Assembly (NCBI RefSeq): GCF_002775205.1
Contig: NC_036447.1
Span: forward strand, 25,526,501 to 25,590,500
Length of the DNA stretch: 64,000 bases
Reading direction: 5' to 3'
Source of the DNA: Xiphophorus maculatus
Taxonomy: Eukaryota; Chordata; Actinopteri; Cyprinodontiformes; Poeciliidae
This document shows positions 31,744-64,000 of the stretch, piece by piece (the first letter of the stretch is position 1; the number at the start of each line of letters is the position of its first letter). Position numbers and translations under genes: made by a program. The notes beneath the pieces were generated by a model. That model did no database searches. It had not been told where the DNA came from and saw only the letters and a program-made list of their open reading frames with translations.

Positions 31744-32598
31744 TTAACGTTTGAATGCTTTATTGAATTGGGTCAGGAAGGGATCTGTTTCTAGTTGGTT
31801 AATGGGGGCTGGAGGGGGATGAGGGGAACTTGCCTTTTTAAAATTTCTCGATGGTGAAAGCGAGCTTCCCGTGTACAGAGTCTTCTTACCGCTGTGTGAC
31901 CAACACAAGTGTGGTTCCTCTGTTGCAGGTCTTCCACCTTCTCCAAAATGTGCGGATTTTTGCTGGAGATCTTCCTTCTCAGCTCTGAGTGTCGGCAGGC
32001 TGCATATCATAATTAGCTCTTTCCAAATGAACACTTTTCTCACAACTCATCTGCTGCTGGTATTTTTCTACTTGTTCTTTTAGTGCAGCAACATCGGTTT
32101 CGTACCTGCAGTTTAACTCCTGGTATAAACCTTTAATCCTCTCCAGCTCGACCTGTGCATCCCTTTCCTTCTCTTGCAGGCGTTTGATCTTTTTACCCAT
32201 ACTTTCTCGGAGGGCGGCATTCATAGCTCTGGCGTTGTTGAGAAGCGCCATGTCCTCCTTTGACTTCTCCAGGTGAGTTTTTTTCTCCTGAGTGACATGC
32301 AGCTGAAGATGTTCCACCTTCTGCTGCAGAGAAGACATTTTAAATGTTTCGCCAACCCACGGAATTTCTCCAGCAGCGTCTCAAACTCTTTTGACATTTC
32401 GTCAAAGAGACAATCCTTCTCAGCTCTCAGTTCGCCAATTTGCTGGAGGTCCTGCTTTGCTCTTTCTGAATTGGCTTTTCTTTCCTGGTCCAAGATGTTC
32501 TGATACGTTTCCACCTCTTGTTTCAGCCCAGAAACATCTTTTTCATACTTGCAGTTCAGCTCTTTGTATGAAAGCTGTTCCTGCAAACTTTTCCTCAA
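31744..32598 (-). pseudogene. Decayed coiled-coil protein fragment with two internal repeats
   Basis: Three overlapping minus-strand frames together encode a Glu/Lys/Gln-rich heptad pattern typical of a long coiled coil. The frame changes near 32340 and again near 31995, with no splice signals, so the reading frame is broken at least twice. Two repeat units can be seen about 450 nt apart: ELNCKYEKDVSGLKQEVETY and ELNCRYETDVAALKEQVEKY. Each continues to an ELRAEKD/LRAEKED block. The parent gene is not identified. A real gene with assembly errors is the main alternative. Confidence 0.6.
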
Positions 32599-32639
32599 CA
32601 GTATCTAGGCCTGTTTAGGCCCTAAAACTGTATCTCAGC

Positions 32640-35307: not shown

Positions 35308-36852
35308 TTACGGAGCCACCGCTTTCTCACAGATCCAGTAGTTTTCGTCTCCACACGGTATGTCGTTCCAGCTGTTTTCCAGCTCAAAGAACCTTATCTC
35401 CACACAGTTTTCCATTTTGCCTTCGAAACCGTTTGGCTCTCCAGGCCCCCAGTAGCTGAAACCAAAAGAAGACAAAACAGGACAACGTCAATGGCAAGAA
35501 AATATGTTTTAGTAAAAAAGTACAAACTGACATGTTAGTATGCATCCTATTTTTATTCACGTTAATTATTGAGGTGTAATCATCACTTTCTACATCTTTT
35601 TATGCTTCACAAAACAGAAAAATGGTAAAACCAAACAACAACAACAACACCTTTTGGTCAGCGGAGTCCCATCCACCCATGTCCAGTTCCCCGTCTTGGT
35701 CTTATTATGAAGTCCGAGCCAAGTGAGTCTGTTAAACTGTCTTGTGAAGTCCTTACGCAGAAAATGCAACCATAAGAAATGCACATATTTACTTAAAATA
35801 ATTACCCAATTATTTCATTTTGAATGAAGACACGCTTACCTGTTCTTCTTTGGTGTTGATGATCACCAGGTCAGCGCCTTGCTGCAGACAGAACCGTCTG
35901 CTCTGCTGCCACGTGTTCCTGTTGGAAGAAATATAATACACACTGGAATGGAAACGCACCCATCCCCGCTGGATGTACCGCTCTGTGGAGGGGAGAAAAA
36001 CTCTTCAGACTCTTTCCACTTACCCTGTGTTTGCATCAAAATTTGTTTTAGAAAAGCTTTAGAGGTTTTAATCAAAAGACGAACTAATGCGGTGTAACAA
36101 TGTAAAGTCTAAATTAAATGGTCACACTTTATTTGAAGGTGTGTACGTAAGACTGACTTGCCACTGTCAGAAACATGACACAACACCTGTCATGAAGATG
36201 AAGGAGCCTTTGAGAATGTTTACGACTGCTGTCATGAAGTGTGACTTGGTACATAATTACATTTTTAATGCAAAGGTCACCATTTTAATGGACTTTTGAC
36301 ACAAGATTTAGTGTAATTTTCTATCACAAGTGTCATTATCTACCGAAAGGCACTTCACGACAACAATCGTAAATGTCCATAAAGACTCCTTCATGTTCCT
36401 GACAGGCGTTGTGTCATGCTTATGACGGTGTCATGTCAGTCTTATGAACACCCCGTCAAATAAAAGTGTTACCACCTAAACTTCTCATCTGTGTCAGTTT
36501 GTCTTAGAGTTGCATTGATCCAAAGTTATGAGTAATTATTGAGGTTCTTTCAGATGCTTAAACAATGTGTCTTTTATCTGCATTTTATCTGTTTGGAGAT
36601 CCGAGCAAAGTCATTTGCAGGATGAAAGAGAATTTAGCCAATTTAAATTAATCGTGCTAATGATTATAATTAATCGTGCTAATGATTATAATTAATCGTG
36701 CTAATGATTGTGAGAGATAAATAGCAGAAAATACTATGAAGATTTAGCCTCAATATTTATTTTACATGCTGTTTGTGTTACCATTGTTGAACTCAGTAGA
36801 TGTATGTTTTCCCCATGATGAGTTTCATCATCAACATCATCATCATCATCAA

Positions 36853-36950
<98 letters not shown>

Positions 36951-39090
36951 CACTTACCGATCAGTTGTTCCTGCTTGACAGTTTCATTACTGCAAGCGGG
37001 TCCTGTTGGTGATGTCTGACCGTCAGATTTGACTGAAAGAGAAGAGAATTAATCAACATTGTGAAAACAAGACCTTCGTCGTGCTGTCATGTGATTAGAA
37101 AAAGCAAGTGAGCTCATGTTAATGTGGGAGTCTGTAGTTCATTTTAAGGACAAAACAGTGAAGCATTAGCCAAGTGGAAAGCCCCCATCCTTTGGTTCCC
37201 CTCTGTCAGTCTGCGTAGTACCTCTGACTTTTCACAGGTTTCACAACAGTTCGTGATTCTTATCGTCCTGAAATGGATAGAAATGTGTTCATGTTCCCTT
37301 CGCCAAGTATGACAATGTGAACGATCCATGTTCACACTATTTAACACTGAAGTCAATTTGATGCCCATAGGCTCTCCATAAAAGACACATTTCAGGATTT
37401 TTTTTTTTGGTCACTTTAACACCTACATTTTACATTCTTTAACAAAAGAAATAATATAAAAAAAGTGATTTCCAATTAAATCAAACCCTTGTGAGACGAC
37501 ACAGATGACTTCACAGGAGGAAAATTGTGAAATGCACTTCCTCAAAATTTGCCATCTAGGACATAACGAATGCCAACGTGGTGGTTGCTATAGTAACGGT
37601 GTGAATTCCTCGACCCCGCGGCGACAAACCTTCACTGAGAAACTGTTGCTATTTTATCATAACTTTCTTCCATTCTGAACCACAAAACAAACATTTTTGT
37701 ACCTGCAGGAGCCAAAGCTAAATGTTATAAAGATTATATGCATAACTGGTACTGTTTGCTGATTTACCTTTTTGTTCCTTCTTCTGATTTTTATTGTTTT
37801 GAAATTGAAAGAAATATGCACCAATTTCAAAGGGATGAAAGGCTGGTTCGAATACTCCTTGAATAAATGATCAGGTGTTTAGTTTTGTCAGATGATGATG
37901 ACAGTCATTTGACCTCTTTCTCTTTCATTACTGACACGTGGTTACATCAGTTTTTCCATTTCCTCTTTATTTTTAATTTTGTTTTTTGGTCAAAATGTTT
38001 CAGTTTTTTAGTAAACACACAGACTCACACACACCATCTTTGAGGATAGTTAAAGTTTTTTGGATTAGAATTATGTCTTAGGTAATTACAATTTGAGAAT
38101 TGTAATTCACATTGCACATTCACATTACAATTTCAGAATATTACTTAAGCTTCGCTCATTCAGGATCTGCAGTATCAATGTAGTTAATTGTTGCATATTC
38201 TCTTGGCATTTTGGTATTTTTTGGTATATCTGAAATGAGTAGATAAATATTTTCTGAAAGGCCTTAAAAATCATACAAAATATTTTTATGTACTATTTTC
38301 TGGAGACCTTGCATTACACCCAAATTCCATTTATTTTCGCTCCAATCACCCTTCAGGTCTATTTGCTCCCACAAAACATGACCCGTTATGACCTCTGATT
38401 AAACAAAATCTACCTTGAAAGACAAATTAATCCGTAACAACATGTCCTTACAGGGAACCAGGAGAAGATATTGGAAAATTATTTCAATCTTTGGTTGTTA
38501 AAGTTGGGAACAAATCGCAGACCGACTCAGTACAAAACGTCCTGCCAGACGACCCTTTATTTGTAACAAAAAGGAGACAGGAAATGACTATAGCTGAAAA
38601 GGCACGAAACAGCAAACGGACAAAATGTCCACGCTTCCTCTCTCAACTTAAGCATTATTTCCAGCAGCTGCTCTTCACATGCATTACAATCTGAGGATAT
38701 TATTAAATTTGGCTTATAGTCTCTCTGCTAAATGGGGCCTGATAAAACAAATTTATTATTTGTTTCTTTGGTGAATGCTGTTTTTTGCCTTTAATCAGCA
38801 ATTGATGCCATTTTGGAAACATGTTTTTACCCTTCTCTAGTTTGTTTCCTTAATCCAGATAAAACGTATTGCTCACAAAGCACAAAGCTTAGCTGTCACG
38901 CTGACAAACGGTGTAAAACTCACACAGTGTCAGGCGGAGAGACACGTTGACAGCAACTTGTAGGAAGCAAAGGAGTCCAAAGCTAACTCCAACCAGCCTC
39001 AATAGCTTTGTCCCTGGATATAGAAACAGGGTCACAATAACAGAGAAATTCTTCTGTTGCATCTTTTGTCAAACGTTTGTGTGTGTGCAC

Positions 39091-48465: not shown

Positions 48466-49098
48466 ATGCACCAGAAGCAGGAGGATGACATCACTCAGTG
48501 TCTAGCTGCCGATGAAGTCGGGACAATGCCCAGACGGGGGATGAGCGACTATGTTAATGAGCGGCCATATGGGGAAACAAATTTGCCAGGTAACACAAAA
48601 TATTACAAACATCTTCATTTTAGCTTATCAATTTAAATACATGTTTTCCTTTGACTTGCAGAGAGAAGACGCTATCGTCTGCTTTTCCTCAGCATCGGCG
48701 CGCTGTGTATCATACAAGCCATTCTCAATTTGTCGCTTCGTCTTACATGTGAGTGTCTCTTCTTTGTCTCATAGAGTGTAGGTAAAACAACAAAAAACAG
48801 CCATAACAGTTTGTTTTTTCTCGTTTTATTCACAGTGTACTCAAACAAGATTGCACCCTCCTCAGCTTGCAACATATCCGTGTTTGGTGATGAAAACCAC
48901 AAGATGGAGGAAGAAACAATGTGTGAGCAAATTAAGCCTGGTCAGTGCAGAAAGTTCCTGGAAGTCGCCTGTGCCTTGAAGAGAGACAGAGGCACACTTG
49001 AAGAAACTATCAGCAGACTCACGAAGGAAAAAAAGATGGTAGAGGAGGAGAGAGACCGGCTGAAAATGAATCTCTGCCTCCCTTTGGAGGCGCCATAA
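48466..49098 (+). CDS. Type II receptor related to the lectin receptors, lacking a lectin domain
   Basis: Three exons: 48466-48589, 48662-48748, 48836-49098, continuous phase, 157 aa. The tail (about 41 aa) has MSDYVNERPYG with DYVN at residues 28-31. The membrane exon gives YRLLFLSIGALCIIQAILNL, clearly homologous to receptors 1 and 2. The third exon encodes a stalk with several Cys and a predicted coiled coil (TISRLTKEKKMVEEERDRL), then stops. No C-type lectin domain exon follows within 2 kb. The stop and last residues seem to lie in a hAT-like element. The ATG lies two bases after a strong acceptor (TTCTTTAAG), so a 5' untranslated exon upstream is likely. A GTGAGC donor within exon 3 near 48922 could give a shorter stalk like the paralogues. 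It may be a decaying gene or a lectin-less receptor. Confidence 0.75.
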
Positions 49099-51247: not shown

Positions 51248-51320
51248 GTTTCTGTAGTGTAATGGATATCACGTTTGCTTTACACGCAAAAAGTATCTGG
51301 TTCAAGACCAGACAGAAACA
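51248..51320 (+). tRNA. tRNA-Val(TAC)
   Basis: A 73-nt cloverleaf. The acceptor stem GTTTCTG pairs perfectly with CAGAAAC, with A as discriminator. The D arm is GTG...CAC. The anticodon stem TTTGC/GCAAA surrounds loop TTTACAC with TAC at 51281-51283. The T stem TCTGG/CCAGA is perfect around TTCAAGA. A TTTT terminator follows immediately at 51321. The sequence differs from the usual vertebrate valine tRNA at several stem pairs, all compensated, so it looks intact rather than decayed. A tRNA pseudogene is the alternative. Confidence 0.85.
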
Positions 51321-51750: not shown

Positions 51751-54187
51751 TTAAAAAGGATTGGACATTGCAAACACAAAGGCCACAGGAAGCTGTAGCC
51801 CAATATTGACAATGTGCAACTTTCCCATCCCTAATGCTCCAAGAATCAACCCTGCCACCGTCCCCACAGTTCCCAGCCATGAGGACCACCTTGTAGCTGC
51901 CGCCGATGTTGCACCAACTGACATCCCCGCTGCTCCAACCACTCCCAGCAGGGCACCCGCCATCTCTCCGTCACTCAGAACTGGAGCTAAAGCGTCCATC
52001 CCTGTGAGTAGGACTCCTGCGACCGAAGCTGCCCCTACAATAACCTTTACCTCGCCAGCTGCTCTGCGAACTAATGCCCCTCCCACTGTGGCCCCCAGGC
52101 CCAGCTGACATAGTTTTGCCCCAAAAAAGGATGTGGTCACAGCCTCCAGGGAAGACTGAAGGTTCATTCGAGTGCTGATGGATTCTGCGGACTGATTGTG
52201 CCCCGCCTGGCTCATCCTCGTAGCAGCTGTAACAGCCTCCTGCTTGGCATGCAGCGTGAGCATGGCAATGATGAAGGTTGCAAACATTCCCATGCACCCC
52301 ACCAACATCCAGAACTTAAAGTCAGAGGACTGCATAAGAACAAAGGCAATGAGGACAACTAAAGCCAGAAGCACTATAAGCACAACCTGATGGCTCCCAT
52401 AGCCAAACAATCCTAATACTGATGTGACAAAGGAAACCACTGCCATTGGTATTCCCGTGAAAGCCAAGAAATCGACTTGTTTGACCAAAACGGTATTGAT
52501 CCAGTCGTGGATGGTTCTTTGCTCCATTTCAGCCTCTTTTTTCTCGATTTTCCTCTTGTCTATCGCCTCCCTTTCTCTTTTTTCAGTGATCCATCTCGCC
52601 CTGTCATCCACTGCGTTACCGCCCTTCTCTACGGACAATATCCTCTCCTCTATTTGCAGAGCCACCCTTTGTCTCTGCTGCCACTCAATAATCTCAATGT
52701 CTTCCCTCTCTCTGGACATGACATCAACTCCTAGAGTGCAACAAGTCTCTCCCTGGGTCCATGCCAGCTGGAATAAAACACTAAGAGGCGGTTTAAGCAC
52801 AGTGAACAGGCCTAAAGCCCACAGAAGTCCCACCATGCCATAGGTCCTCACAATCCATTCGATTGCCTTCCCAAACGTTGCTCCGCTGAGTGTGATCCCT
52901 AGAATGCCAGCACATCCTGCTGATGCCCACAAGCCAGCAGAGTCTGCGTAGGAGGTGCTGCACCTCCTCATTCTTACAAACACCGAGGCTACCGCCGCCG
53001 CCAAAATAACTCCTGCTATGACGGATGTCATTGCTGTTGTCAGTGCTGTTGCTCCCATAAGCGTGCCCAGTCCCAGGGGACCCATCACCCTGACCTCCTC
53101 CATCACTGGTTTCAGTGGACCGCTTGCAGTCATGGCAGACGCGATCCTATCCACCGGGTCCTCCGTAGCGCCCAGTATGCACCCTCCCACAGCTCCCAGG
53201 GCAAATCCCAGAGCTGCCTCCATCAACTGGCTCTTGTTTCCTGAAAGAGAAAGAAGGCACAAATCGTTTTACCACTTTGGCTTTTTTTATTCCTACTATT
53301 TCAGGAGCAAACAAATAGTTCTGTACCACCAGAACTACTGGACATCATATAATTTGAAACTACATTTCTGAAATCTCCACATTATCAAATGTTGTCATCA
53401 CGTTTGAAATATGTAATCCCAACAAATAATTTCTACGAGGTGAAAGTTGGTTTACTATTTCGACTTGATAGGCAGTCATAATTTCTTTTGATACTTTTGG
53501 ATCAGAACCACAATCAATGGAAATATGGTGCTATATGAAGTCTTCAGAAAACAGTAAGGTGTATGTGTTTTTATGCTTCATAATTATGTCTTATTTCAGT
53601 TTTTAGGGTTTCAAACATGTTCAGAAGAAGATTCTCTGCCAAACTGAACAAGTTCCACAAGAAAAAATCTACACTAACCGCATTGCACATGAAACTACGC
53701 ATTTTTCAGCCGAAGCAGTCAAACGGTGGTTACATTTTTGTAATTTTAGTTTCAGATTTTTTTCTGTCAATATCTGTCACTACTTTATCTCAAGAGCACA
53801 ATGTTGCCCCGTGGCAATGGACAATGTACCTACAGTCGGAACAGACAGACACCTTTGACAAACAGGTTTTTCAGGTTCGACCCGGAGAAGCGATCTCTAT
53901 CTGTGCCTGGCTACATGTGACTTTAATCAAGCTAGCAAAGATGGAAGCTATAAACAATAAAAAACCTGGCGTGAACACTTTAACCTACAAAAGTTAGCAT
54001 GAATCATTTGTGTAGTTAGCCAATGATGAAAGCACTTGCAGTCCTGTCCGGTGGATGTTTTACTTCAGCTCAGTTTACAAGAACAAAGGAGCAAACCACA
54101 CTCAAACACTGGGTTATCAACAAACTTGTGAATGAAACTGTTGATTTAGGTATTAGATGTAGCCTTACTCAGTTTATTCCGTGCCAT
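51751..54187 (-). CDS. Unrecognised 502-aa Gly/Ala-rich multi-pass membrane protein
   Basis: Two exons: 54187-54169 (ATG in good context, ACAACATGG; gtaagg donor) and 53240-51751 (acceptor CTTTCAG), joined in phase 1; the product begins MARNKLRNKSQLMEAALG. I do not recognise the family. About 11-12 hydrophobic segments are visible (approx. 14-31, 59-96, 107-136, 140-167, 258-287, 290-310, 314-336, 375-399, 404-428, 430-455, 458-479, 482-498). The first and last blocks are rich in Gly/Ala with GxxxG-type spacing. Between residues 183 and 250 lies a highly charged, probably helical loop (SREREDIEIIEW, KREREAIDKRKIEKKEAE). No signal peptide or catalytic motif is evident. The first exon might instead be non-coding, with translation from Met13. 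Nearly all coding sequence is in one exon. Confidence 0.8.
53617..53997 (+). CDS. Hypothetical 126-aa single-pass protein inside an intron, opposite strand
   Basis: An ATG-initiated frame with a basic N-terminus (FRRRFSAKLNKFHKKKS), a hydrophobic segment YIFVILVSDFFLSISVT at about residues 40-56, and a luminal-looking remainder (NVAPWQWTMYLQSE), ending in TAG. This is the plan of a type II signal-anchor protein, such as the first part of a glycosyltransferase, but I cannot name a family. It lies in the intron of the 502-aa gene on the other strand. Coding status is unproven. Confidence 0.25.
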   Translation: MFRRRFSAKLNKFHKKKSTLTALHMKLRIFQPKQSNGGYIFVILVSDFFLSISVTTLSQEHNVAPWQWTMYLQSEQTDTFDKQVFQVRPGEAISICAWLHVTLIKLAKMEAINNKKPGVNTLTYKS

Positions 54188-55139
54188 GTTGTCCAGAGAT
54201 AAGGAAATCCTCTTTCCCAGAAATGCTTCTCTCCTCGTTTGTGTGCTCACAAGACTCGTAGTAAAACTTGTCTAAGATAGTTTCCTTTTTTCTACCCCCC
54301 ATAGTAAAGGAGCCTTCAGGGGACACGCCCTCTTTTCCAACTCACTTCTCTGAATCATCTTTCCTGGAGATCTACAGGATCTCTGCACTATGCAGCTCAA
54401 TGTGTTTGTCAGCGGGATTCAAAGGAGTAACAATGCAGCAACTTCCATCTGTGGTTTTGGTTAATGTAAAAAAAAAAAAAAACTACAAACGTTTGAAATA
54501 AATGCGTCCTTTATTGCAAAAGCATGAAAGACAACAAAAAAATACTTCTTTATATTTATTTAGCATGGAAAAAACATGTAGTTAATTATGTAATATTGCT
54601 TTTTTAACAATAAGGAATTTGATACACTGCCAAGTCTGAGATAATCTTCATCAATGGTGAAAGATGCAATCTTGAAAAAAAATCAGAAAAATGACATTGT
54701 GCTATCTTTAATTTGCATTTTATTGCATAAAAAACATTTTATATGATAGAAAAATGACACTTAACATAAGGAAAAGATGTTTACAATTACAGAGATTAGA
54801 TTTGTTCTGTAATTCTTGACCAGGATTTCAATTACTGCAGTAGAGATTTTATCCCACTCCTCCATACAGATATTCTCAAAATCTTTCAGGTAGTAAATGA
54901 AAATCTAGAAACTTAAATAAATAAAAAAAAAACCTCAGGAAATAACAGATATTTGTGTCTTGCAATAAATTACAACCTGGCCAATGTTTTCAAAAGAGAA
55001 GTGTTTATAGAAAAACTCTTTCATAACATCAAACAGTACAAATTAAATTTTATGTTGATTAGATCACAAAGACTAAATTTCCGTTTAGACAAACACAGAG
55101 GTGATATTCATGAGATTCTTTATGAACATTTTGATTAAA

Positions 55140-56724: not shown

Positions 56725-59560
56725 TTATTTACCCGGTTTACGTTTATTTACTACGCTGTATAAAGCATTTGAATCATCTTCGGGTTCTGGGTTTTCAGTT
56801 CTGAAAAGGAAAAAGAAATGAAAATGCAACATGAAATGCTTTGGCAGAGTAATTTGTGAATACTTGTTTTTCTTTTTCTTGGTAAAGCAAGTCTGTAGAA
56901 CAAATCCAAAAGAGAAACCCTCCATAATCAGGCTACTCTAAAAGATATATTTCACAAATGTTTTCTCTACACAACACTTTGGCAGCTTAAGGAATCATTG
57001 TCTTCTATAATAATTTAAATGTGCTGTTTCTTAATGTTCACCAAGCACGATGTTAACGAGAGCTACTTACCTCTGGCCAAACTTGACAGTAGCGTACTCT
57101 ACGTTCTGCTCGCCCTCTTCCTCCAGATCAGCTGTGCCGGTTTTACCAGGTTGAAAGTTTTCATACACAGGAGCTCTCTGCTTCCTCAGGAACCGGATGC
57201 TGGCGTACTGAAGGTCTTCCTGCGACTTCGACAGGCTGTTTTGGTTCTGCAGGACCAAATGCATTTCACAATCAGTTATAGATTCGCTTGTCAAATGAAG
57301 CCGTGCTTCAAACAGTTTACTGTCCACAGAAAACTGTTACTGTTCTAACGTTTCAATGACTAAGATGGCTGCAGCGCCTGTCACTTTAAAAGATACAGCA
57401 GGGGAAAATAAGTATTGAGAACATCAACGTCTTACTCAGTTATATCTATAATGAAGCAATGACCCAGCTAATCCACAGACAAACAACAACAAATTAATCC
57501 AGAAATAATGTGTAGCAAAGCAAAATGATGCAGGAACATTCTTACTGAAATTTATTAGTTTGTCTGCGGTCCAGTGGGATCGCACTGACCCCGTGTGCGC
57601 TGTTACATTTTTTATTTTTTGTGTAGTTTCAGGAACTGACGGTCTGATGGATCAACCTTCCCTGCTGTCTGACTGTGACATTTGCTGCTAAGACCACGAG
57701 AGGGTTCATGGACTTGTTTACTTTTATATCTTTGAACATATCGACTCGGTTTGTTACCACCATATTGGTCGATTTTCATTAGAGAAGTACAACTAGAAAC
57801 AGAGATATAATGTTGATGGCACTAATCTCTTAAAGAAAACCAAGAGGCACTGACTAAATATCAGTTTTTTTTTCATGACATATTCATTGTCACTGCCCCA
57901 CCAGCCCTGGTGCTTTGCTCCTGGCTCCACTCAGAACTTGCTGACTGTTTTACTGCGTTATTAACAGAAGTCAGGATGTGAAGAGGGGATTATACCAGCC
58001 TCTTATTTCCCATCTGACCTGCTCAATGTTGTTGGGGTTTCCTCCAGGCTTAGGCGGTGGTGTTGATGTTCTCCACTTTCTAGTTATTAGAAAAAATAGT
58101 TAGTGGTCATTTATTGTTCCTAAAATGACCGCATGGCAACAGTGTCTGTAAAAAGTATTCACCCCCTTTGATATGTTACTCTGATATTGATTTTAAAAAT
58201 TAATTAAGATCAACAAAATGTTTTTTTTGACAATATATGCCAAATACCTTCCATTATTTATAATGGGTTTAATTCAGGGGTGTCAAACTCCAGTCCTGGA
58301 GGGCCGCTGTCCTGCAACTTTTAGATGAGCCTCTGCTGCACCACACCTGAATAGAATAATTAGGTCATTAGCAAGGCTGGGAGAACTGATCTACACAAGG
58401 AGGAGGTAATTAAGCCATTTCATTCCAGCGGTTTGTACCTGTGGCACATCTAAAAACTGCAGGACAGGAAACTTGAGGACTGGAGTTTGACACCTGTGGT
58501 TTAATTAAACTCCAGGGGATGTTCAGTGCCTTAGAGATTCTTTTTGTATGCATCTCCTGACTTATACTTTCCAATAATTGGAGTGTTCTTTTGTCTTCAT
58601 GCTGCAACCATTCGAGACACAATCACTCTTTGTGAGACTGCTAGCCCCAATTGGCTGGACCTCTGTTGAATTAAGTCTGTCACTTTAACAGGGTGAATAT
58701 TAACACAATTGCATTTTGTTTCATGTTTTTAATTTATTGTCATTACTTTCTAGAGATCAGTTTTCACTTTGACATTTAAGGGGTTTGTTTTGTTTTATTT
58801 GTGGAAAAAACAACATTTGTTGACCATGATTGATTTGTGCAAGTGTTAAAAAGTTAAAACAACCAGAAGGGTGAATGCATTTTATGGGCACTTTAAATGT
58901 AAGAAATGTGAAGATTAAAAAGATTAACTTACCTCGATATTAAGAAGACAAGGAGAAAAATCATGATCAGCAAAATAGAAGCAACAGTCCCAAAGACTAT
59001 TATCTTTGATTGCCCTGAAAAGAAAACACATTTAGACCTACCAAACTGAAATGTTTAGAGTGATTCTACAATTTAAAATTCTATTCTAGTTTTTGTTCGG
59101 GTTAGCCCACAGTTTGCACGATAACTATGCCTAAAAAAGTCATTGGGTGATTTAAACTATAAATATTTACCTGGCACAACAGTCACAGATACAGAGGTGT
59201 TATGATGTCCTATCTTGTTCTGGACTTTACAGTAATAGTTCCCACTGTGTTCATTTTGTATGTTGGTGATGGTGAAGTTTTCTCCTGAAGCTTTTTGTGC
59301 CTTCTCTCCCTCCTTGTACCAATTAGTACCAATGACCAACAATTAGTTGACTGTTTAATCCTAAAGTAAAGGAGTCAACTTTACCTTTGACTGAGCCAAG
59401 AAAACACTGGATTACTGGAAATAATAAAAATACTTAATCTTGTATCTTGTTTCATCAATAACATCTAATAGTTAAATTTGTTCAGGCAACGTACAGAATT
59501 AATTAATGTAACTAAATGCAAAGATAGAAGGGTCAGTAGAAAAAACAATATTTATATATA

Positions 59561-60057: not shown

Positions 60058-63000
60058 TGCTCAAAAAATAAAGGTAACACTTAAACAACACAATATAACT
60101 CCAAGTAAATCAAACTTCTGTGAAATCAAACTGTCCACTTAGGAAGCAACACTGATTGACAATCAATTTCACCTGCTGTTGTGCAAATGAAATAGACAAC
60201 AGGTGGAAATTATTGGCAATTAGCAAGACACACTCAATAAAGGAGTGGTTCTGCAGTTGGGACCACAGACCACTTCTCAGTACCTATGCTGTCTGGCTGA
60301 TGCTTTGGTCAGTTTTGAATGTTGGTAGTGCTTTCACACTTGTGGTAGCATGAGACGGACTCCACAACCCACACAAGTGGCTCAGGTAGTGCAGCTCATC
60401 CAGGATGGCACATCAATGCGAGCTGTGGCAAGAAGGTTTGCTGTGTCTGTCAGCGTAGTGTCCAGAGGCTGGAGGCGCTACCAGGAGACAGACCAATACA
60501 CCAGGAGACGTGGAGGAGGCCGTAGGAGGGCAACAACCCAGCAGCAGGACCGCTACCTCCACCTTTGTGCAAGAAGGAACAGGAGGAGCACTGCCAGAGC
60601 CCTGCAAAATGACCTCCAGCAGGCCACAAATGTGCATGTGTCTGCACAAACGGTTAGAAACCGACTCCATGAGGATGGTATGAGGACCCGACGTCCACAG
60701 ATGGGGGTTGTGCTCACAGCCCAACACCGTGCAGGACGCTTGGCATTTGCCAGAGAACACCAGGATTGGCAAATTCGCCACTGCGCCTTGTGCTCTTCAC
60801 AGATGAAAGCAGGTTCACACTGAGCACATGTGACAGACGTGACAGAGTCTGGAGACGCTGTGGAGAGCGGTCTGCTGCCTGCAACATCCTTCAGCATGAC
60901 CAGTTTGGCAGTGGGTCAGTAATGGTGTGGGGTGGCTTTTCTTTGGAGGGCCGCACAGCCCTCCATGTGTTCACCAGAGGTAGCCTGACTGCCATTAGGT
61001 ACCGAGATGAGATCCTCAGACCCCTTGTGAGACCATATGCTGGTGCGGTTGGCCCTGGGTTCCTCCTAATGCAGAACAATGCTAGACCTCATGTGGCTGG
61101 AGTGTGTCAGCAGTTCCTGCAAGATGAAGGCATTGAAGCCATGGACTGGCCAGCCCGTTCCCCAGACCTGAATCCGATTGAGCACATCTGGGACATCATG
61201 TCTCGCTCCATCCACCAACGTCACGTTGCACCACAGACTGTCCAGGAGTTGGCGAATGCTTTAGTCCAGGTCTGGGAGAAGATCCCTCAGGAGACCATCC
61301 GCCACCTCATCAGGAGCATGCCCAGGCGTTGTAGGGAGGCCACACACAATACTGAGCCTCATTTTGACTTGTTTTAAGGACATTACATTAAAGTTGGATC
61401 AGCGTGTAGTGTTATTTCACTTTAATTTTGTGTGTGGCTCCAAATCCAGGCCTCCATTGGTTAATAAATTTGATTTCCATTGATGATTTTTGTGTGATTT
61501 TGTTGTCAGCACATTCAACTTTGTACAGAACAAAGTATTCAATGAGAATATTTCTTTCATTCAGATCTAGGATGTGTTATTTGAGTGTTCCCTTTATTTT
61601 TTTGAGCAGTGTGTATATATATATAGGAGAAATATTTACCTGCCACAACAGTCACAGATACAGAGGTGTTATGATGTCCTATCTTGTTCTGGACTTTACA
61701 GTAATAGTTCCCTCTGTGTTCATTTTGTATGTTGGTGATGGTGAAGTGTTCTCCTGAAGCTTTTTGTGCCTTCTCTCCCTCCTTGTACCAGGTGTAGTTA
61801 GCTGCTGGGTTAGCATCACTGCTACATGTCAGAGTCACGGAGCTACCCACCACGATGTCACCAGACGGACTCTGAGACACTGAAGGAGATCTGGGAGCAT
61901 CTGCAAGAAAAAGTAGGAGTTGTGTTTGTTACTTTTATAATAATGTCAAAATATAAAGTTAATAAGTGGAAGACATTCTTTAATGTGCGACTGCGTACAT
62001 TTAACATCAACATTGACTATTGAGTTGTTTTGTCCCATCTTGTTTATGGCTGTACAGTAATATTGCCCAGAATCCATCGACTTGATGGAGTCAAAGATAA
62101 GATTTTTATTTGATTCCAGGAGTTTGTTGTCTTTTTCCTTGTACCAGGTGTAGTTAGCTGCTGGGTTAGCATCACTGCTGCAGGTCAGAGTCACTGGGTT
62201 TCCCTCCTTGATCTCTCCTGAAGGAGTTATGGACACAGAGACGTTTGGGGCATCTGACAAAAACAATAAGTAGACATTTACTAAGCATGAATGAAATGGA
62301 AATACATCCTGATATAAAAATAAAAGAAGAAAACTTACAGAGAACATCAAGAAACCGAGATGAAGAGTTACATTCTCCATGCAGGTTCTGAGCCTTGCAA
62401 GAGTAGCTTCCTCTGTGCTCAGAGCCGACAGCGAGGACATGAAAAACCTCAGACCCATTAGCAATGATTTTATTCTCCTTGTACCAGGTGTAGTTAGCTG
62501 CTGGGTTAGCATCACTAGTACAGGTCAGAGTCACTGGGTTTCCCTCCTCTACTGCTCCAGAGGGTTTCACCGACACAGAACAGTTCTTTGGACCGTCTGA
62601 GTGAGGAAACAAAATGATAGACTGAGGTTTGGTTTGAATGTTTCAAACTATATTATAGGATCTATTAAAAGTCTATATCTGATTTTCTAAACTGGTTACC
62701 CAGTAAATGAAAGAATAAAACTTAGTCTGACTGTCTAATCGACAGACAGACAATTTTCTGTTTTAATCTGAAAATTAAAAAATCAGACAGGAAAATCTGA
62801 GGGCCACACTTGAAACCTAAAAACATTTTCAACTTCCTGTCATGACTTTCTGATTATTCAAGCTAGGATAATTACATCTGAAAGAATTAATTCTTGCAAA
62901 ATAATTCTTGACAAATCTTTTGTGAAAAAGTAAAAAAAAAATTGAACCTTCAAACGGTTCAACCTTTGCTTCTACAGAACCAACAGTAAGTCTCTATTGT

Positions 63001-64000
63001 ATTCTACTCACATTTCACATTAATATCGATACTTGGAGACGTCCGGCTCCCAAGGTCATTTCCAGCTGCACAGTAATACCTCCCAGAATCAGAGACCTGG
63101 ATGGAGCTGAAGACTGGTTGTATTTCTGTGCTGACAAGTTGACCATGTTGATCTTCATTCACCCTGTAAATGTTGTATTTAGCTGCTGGATTAGCATCAC
63201 TGCTGCAGGTCAGAGTCACTTTAGAGCCTTCAACAGTTTCTGAGGGGGTCACTGACAGAACGGTGGTCTGTGGAGCATCTGGAGAAAACGTGAGAATAAA
63301 ACTTCAGATGAAGCTCATGACTTTGCAACTTGAAGCTCAGAATCCCAAATATCAATAAATTTACAAAAATGTAGAGATAAATGGACTAAACTTGTGGCGT
63401 CGCATTCAAAATTTAGCAACAACTGTGAGCATTTATGTAAATGTAATTTATTGGTTTCTTAAGTTCAAAGCTTTTTTACATATTATTGTAATGAGATATT
63501 TATGTGCAGCATTTTGAGGAAAGAGATTATTGTAATTTGAAATGTGACTGTAACATTGCAAAATTTATAAAAAGTGAATCACTGTGAATAAATACTTTCA
63601 GGCTGCACTGAGAATCTGATGGAAAATATGTGGAAAGAGCAACAGATTAGGGTGATGGGAAAGAGGCTTTTTTTCCCAACAGAAATTGCAAAAATTTACA
63701 ATGTTTTGAACTTTTGAGAGATGCCTGTCAAATCAGTAACCATGACACATTTCTAGGTTGAATTAAAATATTTTTAGATCTAAACCTGCCAGGTGAATTA
63801 ATAATTTTTGTTGAACTAAATACATTAAATATTTTCATCAGACAAATACAGAGATACAAACTTACACACTGCAAGAGATGGAACATCCTCATGTCCTCTT
63901 ATTGCACACTGATATCTGTGTGTGGTATTAAATGAGGACAGGACCAAATTATTGTTATTTTCTTTGTTTGCTTTCCCATCCTCCAACCAGACGTAGGAAA
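56725..64000 (-). CDS. CD22/Siglec-like inhibitory receptor (N-terminus off window)
   Basis: Exons, 5' to 3': >64000-63866 (Ig, partial), 63278-63012, 62596-62339, 62253-61999, 61900-61640 (four Ig exons), 59014-58933 (membrane helix), 58079-58019, 57246-57071, 56800-56725 (tail). All join in phase (Ig exons phase 1). Each Ig exon has the two Cys and a YTWYKE or YYC-type motif, most with [11 protein letters not shown]. The helix is about [20 protein letters not shown]. The tail has LQYASI and VEYATV, both matching the ITIM consensus, with VYENF (YxN, Grb2-type) between them and ALYSVV in the last exon. ITIMs recruit SHP-type phosphatases to dampen immune-cell activation. This layout fits fish CD22-like B-cell receptors; other Siglec/CEACAM-like receptors are possible. 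Confidence 0.88.
58145..58905. mobile_element. Tc1/mariner-type short element, host of a nested hAT element
   Basis: The left end AGTGTCTGTAAAAAGTATTC then ACCCCC, and the right end on the other strand AAGTGCCCATAAAATGCATTC then ACCCT, are imperfect inverted repeats. This wording is typical of a common fish DNA element. It is interrupted by the element at 58275-58498 and lies in the CD22-like intron after the membrane exon. Confidence 0.6.
58275..58498. mobile_element. hAT-like short element with perfect 8-bp target duplication
   Basis: The ends CAGGGGTGTCAAACTCCAGT and, inverted, CACAGGTGTCAAACTCCAGT flank a 224-bp body. GTTTAATT occurs on both sides (58267-58274 and 58499-58506). It is inserted in the older Tc1-type element. 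Confidence 0.85.
59171..59341 (-). pseudogene. Truncated duplicate of the last Ig exon
   Basis: Almost identical to the 3' two-thirds of the exon at 61640-61900 (shared [25 protein letters not shown]) and it keeps a gtaaat donor. Similarity ends abruptly at 59328. The part encoding the first Cys and the splice acceptor are missing, and an in-frame TAA lies just upstream. It is therefore unlikely to be a working exon. Confidence 0.75.
59552..59610. repeat. (TA)n microsatellite, first segment
   Basis: TA repeats with few interruptions. The tract continues as 60003-60054 and 61614-61624 after two transposon insertions. Confidence 0.9.
59611..60002. mobile_element. Short mariner/Tc1-type element with near-perfect long inverted ends
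   Basis: The left end CAGTACAGACCAAAAGTTTG and right end (other strand) CAGTACAGACCAAAGGTTTG continue as GACACACCTTTTAATTCAAT on both sides, over 40 bp with one mismatch. TA flanks each side. 392 bp, non-coding. Confidence 0.85.
60003..60054. repeat. (TA)n microsatellite, second segment
   Basis: TA repeats lying between two DNA transposons. Confidence 0.9.
60055..61611 (+). mobile_element. Tc1-like DNA transposon, about 1.56 kb
   Basis: The ends CACTGCTCAAAAAATAAAGG (left) and, on the other strand, CACTGCTCAAAAAAATAAAG (right) are inverted repeats next to TA. It carries one transposase gene, which is broken. It sits in the CD22-like intron between the last Ig exon and its truncated duplicate. 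Confidence 0.92.
60350..61377 (+). pseudogene. Tc1-like transposase, frameshifted and lacking a catalytic Asp
   Basis: The first frame (60350-60823) has an N-terminal helix-turn-helix DNA-binding part ([20 protein letters not shown]) and a basic GRRRATT-like linker. The second frame (in use from about 60766 to 61377) has the DDE catalytic core: FTDESRF (first Asp), MQNNARPH where the family has QDNARPH (second Asp replaced by Asn), and [12 protein letters not shown] (Glu). The frame changes near 60770-60790. Together with the missing Asp, this means the copy cannot supply active transposase, although its ends look intact. Confidence 0.9.
61614..61624. repeat. (TA)n microsatellite, third segment
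   Basis: Short remainder of the TA tract right of the Tc1-like element. Confidence 0.8.

Follow-up and report, generated by a model that had tools for sequence, protein, structure and literature searches.

The closest described systems to the gene reported here are the IFI6/IFI27 (ISG12, FAM14) and apolipoprotein L (APOL) families. Members of the IFI6/IFI27 family (PF06140) are short proteins with Gly/Ala-rich hydrophobic segments; excerpts of one report give human IFI6 as 130 amino acids with two transmembrane regions, chicken IFI6 as 107 amino acids and IFI27L1 as 104 amino acids (PMC10687481). Parts of a second report state that APOL1 and APOL3 form ion channels via a domain with a membrane hairpin, and compare this hairpin to the ones found in BCL2 family members and in bacterial colicins (PMC7891394). 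In fish, the promoters of IFN-induced genes contain both ISRE (GAAA-N2-GAAA) and GAS (TTC-n3-4-GAA) elements, according to sections of two papers (PMC11695323, PMC7573153). The same sections recount that IFN-gamma-induced promoter activity in trout relied on ISRE and not on GAS (PMC11695323), and that trout PSMB9a needed both elements (PMC7573153).

The gene considered here encodes a protein of 502 amino acids and lies in a window of 64 000 nt from Xiphophorus maculatus (C5:25526501-25590500), by which is meant the whole stretch of DNA that was analysed. The protein is like the IFI6/IFI27 proteins in its Gly/Ala-rich hydrophobic segments, and interferon-linked promoter elements are suspected in the gene; unlike those short proteins of ∼104–130 amino acids with two membrane regions, it is predicted to have ∼10 segments. 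It is also like apolipoprotein L (PF05461) in combining a hydrophobic hairpin with charged helices. The coding sequence of APOL genes lies mostly in one long exon, and the 502-amino-acid protein is likewise mostly the product of one long coding exon.

Structure of the gene

The initial annotation, made from the DNA alone, had proposed a 19 nt coding first exon joined in phase to one long exon, a poly(A) signal and a product of 502 amino acids; the coordinates proved right, and the splice sites and AATAAA could be read directly. The gene is on the minus strand. Exon 1 (54187-54169) comprises 19 coding nt, starts with the ATG at 54187 in a good, Kozak-like context (AACATGG) and ends at the donor A/GTAAGG. 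The GT-AG intron (54168-53241) is 928 nt long and its acceptor reads TTTCTCTTTCAG/GA. Exon 2 (53240-51751) encodes residues 7 (part) to 502 and the stop codon TAA at 51751-51753, and joins exon 1 in phase to give the 502-amino-acid product. An AATAAA polyadenylation signal is located at 51691-51686 on the same strand, 60 nt past the stop.

The stop-to-stop frame extends over 505 codons, compared with a longest frame of 250 codons and a mean of 124 when the bases of this DNA were shuffled 300 times and read in six frames, which indicates that the open frame did not arise by chance. Codon usage, for which the yardstick was one BPTF exon from the window, was best in the sense frame, although by a small margin (−4.136 per codon, against −4.177 to −4.456 in the other five frames). 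The gene looks real and intact, and its model is secure. A gene for tRNA-Val (anticodon TAC, 61.4 bits) is present on the opposite strand at 51248-51320 (+), ∼430 nt past the stop, and was the sole Rfam match within positions 40000-64000 of the window.

Genomic setting

The first ∼28 kb of the window contain minus-strand exons that we take to belong to BPTF; two stretches of this region were compared with Pfam, which identified DDT and PHD domains in one and no family in the second. CD22-like Ig exons appear in the window beyond 57 kb and share the strand of the 502-amino-acid gene. Ig domains were identified by Pfam in all three of the window exons tested, and an Ig_CD22 domain in locus L001; among the matches listed, CD22-like exons recur through the next 60 kb. 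The first gene of this tandem array is the 5' neighbour of the 502-amino-acid gene. The earlier placement of the gene within an immune-receptor cluster therefore stands as far as a tandem CD22-like array adjoins it, but the gene itself is at the edge, between BPTF and the array.

Near-identical CD22-like Ig exons are shared between positions 61557-64000 together with L001 and a second locus, L002 (∼74.1–76.6 kb from the window start), for example 61557-61928 and 74103-74537, and point to recent tandem duplication. Histone genes and mobile elements appear to break up the array. The histone genes lie inside it at ∼99.7–109.8 kb from the window start (L004-L005), and are presumably those for H2A, H3, H4 and, in two frames with an identical translation, H2B. 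A transposase, which we take to be Tc1/mariner-like, is found at 60329-61374 (+) in two overlapping frames, with a DDE_3 domain in 60673-61374. It is situated between the Ig exons that begin at 61557 and the tail exon of the first CD22-like gene (57070-57336), which we regard as ITIM-like.

This setting is compatible with a role outside immunity, in which the protein would serve a general function as a transporter, channel or ER/Golgi scaffold, either divergent or unclassified, and its position beside CD22-like genes would be accidental. The other neighbour, BPTF, is not an immune gene, and the tandem array and histone genes represent local turnover that could have placed the gene where it is.

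Searches for relatives

The Pfam search, performed with the whole protein and with three pieces at E values up to 10, returned no family above cut-off, with the proviso that the HMMER filters may lose weak matches. NCBIfam gave no match to the 502-amino-acid protein, PHROGs nothing below E 0.099 and the PDB sequences nothing below E 0.33. The statement in the initial annotation that no family was known with this layout is thus borne out for Pfam, NCBIfam and PHROGs. It had also named a match to a known transporter as grounds for abandoning its proposal, and none was present in Pfam, NCBIfam or the PDB sequences, a result that equally weighs against a transporter or channel. Three scans of viral contigs and one of prokaryote genomes, each seeded by six exact peptide patterns and so reaching close relatives only, detected no relative, and neither did tblastn searches of phages and plasmids. 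No description of the protein was found among the papers listed by literature searches, as judged by titles and the starts of abstracts.

The species' own genome (704.3 Mb, 101 contigs) yielded no paralogue. Exon 2 matched once, also at E values up to 10, and the middle piece and the C piece alone gave one match each; as this search scores only the best candidates (one or two here), a distant paralogue could be missed. A single genomic match is unlike the expanding immune families and favours a non-immune role. By these searches the gene is unclassified, matching no family in the libraries covered, and orthologues may be present in other fish as unnamed proteins in databases.

That no relative was found in any library or collection searched would also suit a young, lineage-specific orphan gene whose function is not settled. 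We consider this unlikely: the length of the protein, the clean splice sites, the good start context and the intact 505-codon frame suggest maintenance, and absence from the libraries says little when they include no vertebrate protein set.

The searches bear in the same way on a transposon- or virus-borne gene, an origin to which the Tc1-like transposase 6 kb away (60329-61374) and the mobile sequence in the extended locus draw attention. Part of the intron (53496-53551, or 45–51 bases of it) resembles four other places in the genome at 84–87%, while the rest of 53200-54500, covering intron and promoter DNA, has no second match there. Such an origin, of which the transposon-borne form had been listed beforehand as a threat to the proposal, is very improbable given one genomic match, DNA that is unique over 53200-54500 but for ∼50 bases, a vertebrate-type intron and poly(A) signal, and no viral or phage relative from the scans and searches above.

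Comparison with IFI6/IFI27 and APOL

Gly/Ala-rich hydrophobic blocks and runs of small residues might mark the protein as an enlarged member of the IFI6/IFI27 family, and this possibility was put to a direct comparison. A profile search of the species' own genome identified seven Ifi-6-16 matches, all above cut-off and all within ∼30 kb on another contig, C19. When a profile constructed from these seven copies was run without filters, the best domain of the 502-amino-acid protein scored −3.4 bits, and 428 of 500 local shuffles of its sequence scored as well; as a positive control, all seven members scored 62–100 bits when held out. Pfam Ifi-6-16 (PF06140) was absent among matches at E values up to 10. 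Membership of the IFI27/ISG12 family, named in the initial annotation as an outcome that would overturn it, is excluded at the sequence level, since the profile scores the protein no better than its shuffles; an enlarged IFI6/IFI27 protein is accordingly the least probable of the explanations considered. The resemblance to ISG12, as measured by these scores, is compositional. The C19 matches form an IFI6/IFI27-like cluster (C19:10932640-10961907, L029-L035), and three of the seven have an in-frame stop inside the match; these stops may be read-through exon ends or mark pseudogenes.

The APOL domain (PF05461) was also absent from the Pfam matches to the whole protein and the three pieces at E values up to 10. 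All the Pfam matches fell below threshold, two likenesses among them. Residues 13-32 resemble the glycine-zipper domain Gly-zipper_OmpA (PF13436; E 0.032, 14.5 bits, curated cut-off 27 bits), although over only 20 residues. The hydrophobic stretch 294-364 resembles EOS1 (PF12326; E 0.003, 18 bits, cut-off 23 bits), but with the middle piece in isolation the best EOS1 stretch shifted to residues 221-281 (E 0.05), moving as chance matches do.

Predicted membrane anatomy

The protein is composed of 13.1% Ala, 11.4% Leu, 10.6% Gly and 10.2% Val. A position-weighted biological hydrophobicity scale identified ten hydrophobic segments (12-32, 73-95, 108-130, 136-157, 264-286, 289-311, 316-338, 406-424, 433-455 and 461-481) in place of the 11–12 claimed previously; a Kyte-Doolittle scan added a C-terminal stretch at 480-499. 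On the position-weighted scale three of the ten segments (73-95, 289-311 and 316-338) are favourable alone, and the other seven are marginal at +0.9 to +2.8 kcal/mol. From its hydrophobicity the protein is predicted to be polytopic, with about ten segments. A charged region was found at 183-250, where one had been described. A polytopic protein in which a charged loop separates segment 4 from segment 5 would fit a transporter, channel or scaffold, although the weakness of seven of the ten segments counts against a transporter or channel.

Two further proposals from the initial annotation were not supported. The number of GxxxG motifs, from which tight helix packing had been suggested, was not clearly above that expected from composition, with five in the N block where 2.6 were expected (90 of 1000 shuffles reached as many) and six in the C block where 3.2 were (83 of 1000). 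The layout of two membrane blocks as a clean symmetry failed under local shuffling. When the N and C blocks were compared by BLAST without composition correction they aligned over 95 residues with 32% identity (E 2e-5), a score reached by four of 500 global shuffles and by 34 of 500 shuffles within blocks of 10 residues. We do not claim that the N and C blocks arose by duplication within the protein, given the local shuffles that equalled the score. The middle block gave low scores of 43 and 41 against the N and C blocks; scores as good were obtained from 10 global and four local shuffles of 500 for the N block, and from 10 and 11 of 500 for the C block. These values suggest, weakly, some internal similarity of the middle block to both. 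A single-sequence AlphaFold2 model was all-helical, with a mean pLDDT of 47.7 and a pTM of 0.27, too poor for fold comparison.

Four of the first 10 residues are Lys or Arg, and an RMRR loop follows segment 2. The loop 339-405 contains an N-Q-S sequon at residue 355. We infer an arrangement in which the N terminus, the RMRR loop and the charged helical region 183-250 would face the cytosol, whereas the N355 sequon and the loop 339-405 that contains it would face the lumen; this loop is also rich in Lys/Arg, which speaks against its lumenal placement.

Promoter elements

The DNA upstream of exon 1 contains a GAS/STAT-type site, TTCTGGGAA, at 54214..54222 (minus strand), 35 to 27 nt upstream of the ATG, and a second, TTCAGAGAA, at 54346..54354 (minus), starting 167 nt upstream. 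Between them lies an ISRE-like site, AAAAAGGAAAC, at 54280..54290 (minus), with one mismatch to GAAANNGAAAC and starting 103 nt upstream. The proximal promoter thus carries two exact GAS sites (TTCNNNGAA), the element looked for in interferon-stimulated genes, at −35 and −167. No exact ISRE (GAAANNGAAA) was found in the 2 kb upstream, and the proximal promoter has only the one-mismatch site at −103; in the intron plus these 2 kb, the sole exact GAAANNGAAA is within the pyrimidine tract of the intron.

Over the surrounding 124 kb, at least two TTCNNNGAA sites together with an ISRE-like site within 300 nt were found in the promoter of the 502-amino-acid gene and nowhere else (six of 4948 intervals of 300 nt, which overlap); none of 7760 intervals from 200 kb in 20 stretches of other contigs contained them. 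The combination was spotted by eye before it was counted and is in that sense post hoc. One GAS site was present in ∼8–10% of 300 nt intervals and a GAS pair in 0.22% at the locus and 0.41% elsewhere. A one-mismatch ISRE was present in 20% of intervals at the locus and is so common that the promoter argument comes down to the GAS pair. The seven IFI27-like loci contained an exact ISRE in four cases and a GAS in two, in regions of ∼3 kb each that in part overlap and in which promoters were not located, so that they provide no clean control.

The promoter hints at control of the gene by immune signals, and the GAS pair tells against a purely non-immune role. The initial annotation had cautioned that any role in immunity was drawn from the neighbours; that caution was right, and the promoter adds separate, modest and post hoc evidence.

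A possible mode of action

The explanation that we put forward, with a probability of roughly one in four, is that the gene encodes a STAT-responsive multi-pass protein that modulates intracellular membranes, its weak Gly/Ala segments acting conditionally on either side of a strong central hairpin. We give a higher probability, though still short of an even chance, to a non-immune transporter or scaffold. The GAS pair with the ISRE-like site and the CD22-like 5' neighbour on the same strand were counted in favour of the STAT-responsive protein, as were the gene structure with its intact frame, the single match in the genome, the strengths of the segments and the layout of charge. Counted against it were the confinement of the exact ISRE to the pyrimidine tract of the intron, the dependence of trout promoter activity on ISRE over GAS as recounted in part of PMC11695323, and the post hoc spotting of the motifs. 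The non-immune neighbour BPTF was counted on the same side, and a transporter with transmembrane helices packed in the ordinary way could account for the Gly/Ala segments.

The mechanism is the weak part of this explanation. The strongly hydrophobic central hairpin 289-338 would act as a membrane anchor, and the marginal Gly/Ala-rich flanking segments would insert or rearrange conditionally, with a change in permeability or membrane dynamics as the outcome; the charged helix may serve as a regulatory or oligomerisation arm. With less assurance, STAT/IRF signalling in immune cells might switch the gene on, and the protein might reside in an intracellular membrane, that of the ER, an endolysosome or a mitochondrion. 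In its action the protein would resemble APOL or ISG12/IFI6 proteins while belonging to neither family. At its most speculative, and we think it distinctly improbable, the protein would be the first representative of a vertebrate family, so far undescribed, of STAT-inducible polytopic membrane proteins in which a strong central hairpin anchors Gly/Ala segments that insert on demand, so that pathogen-containing or mitochondrial membranes are permeabilised or remodelled, a fish counterpart of APOL or ISG12 in action and not in descent.

If the gene were STAT-inducible and lineage-restricted, it would represent a new membrane effector in fish innate immunity, missed by human-based annotation and adjoining a duplicating array of CD22-like receptors; were it to encode a housekeeping membrane protein instead, it would simply join the other unclassified genes. 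In both cases there are concrete starting points in the gene model, the promoter sites and the exclusion of ISG12.

Other features of the window

Between BPTF and the 502-amino-acid gene, coiled-coil-like frames are present at 31744-32604 (−) and 48775-49098 (+), two pieces of which matched no Pfam family above cut-off. A simple repeat at 36734-37048 (−) reads as more than 30 aspartates in a row.
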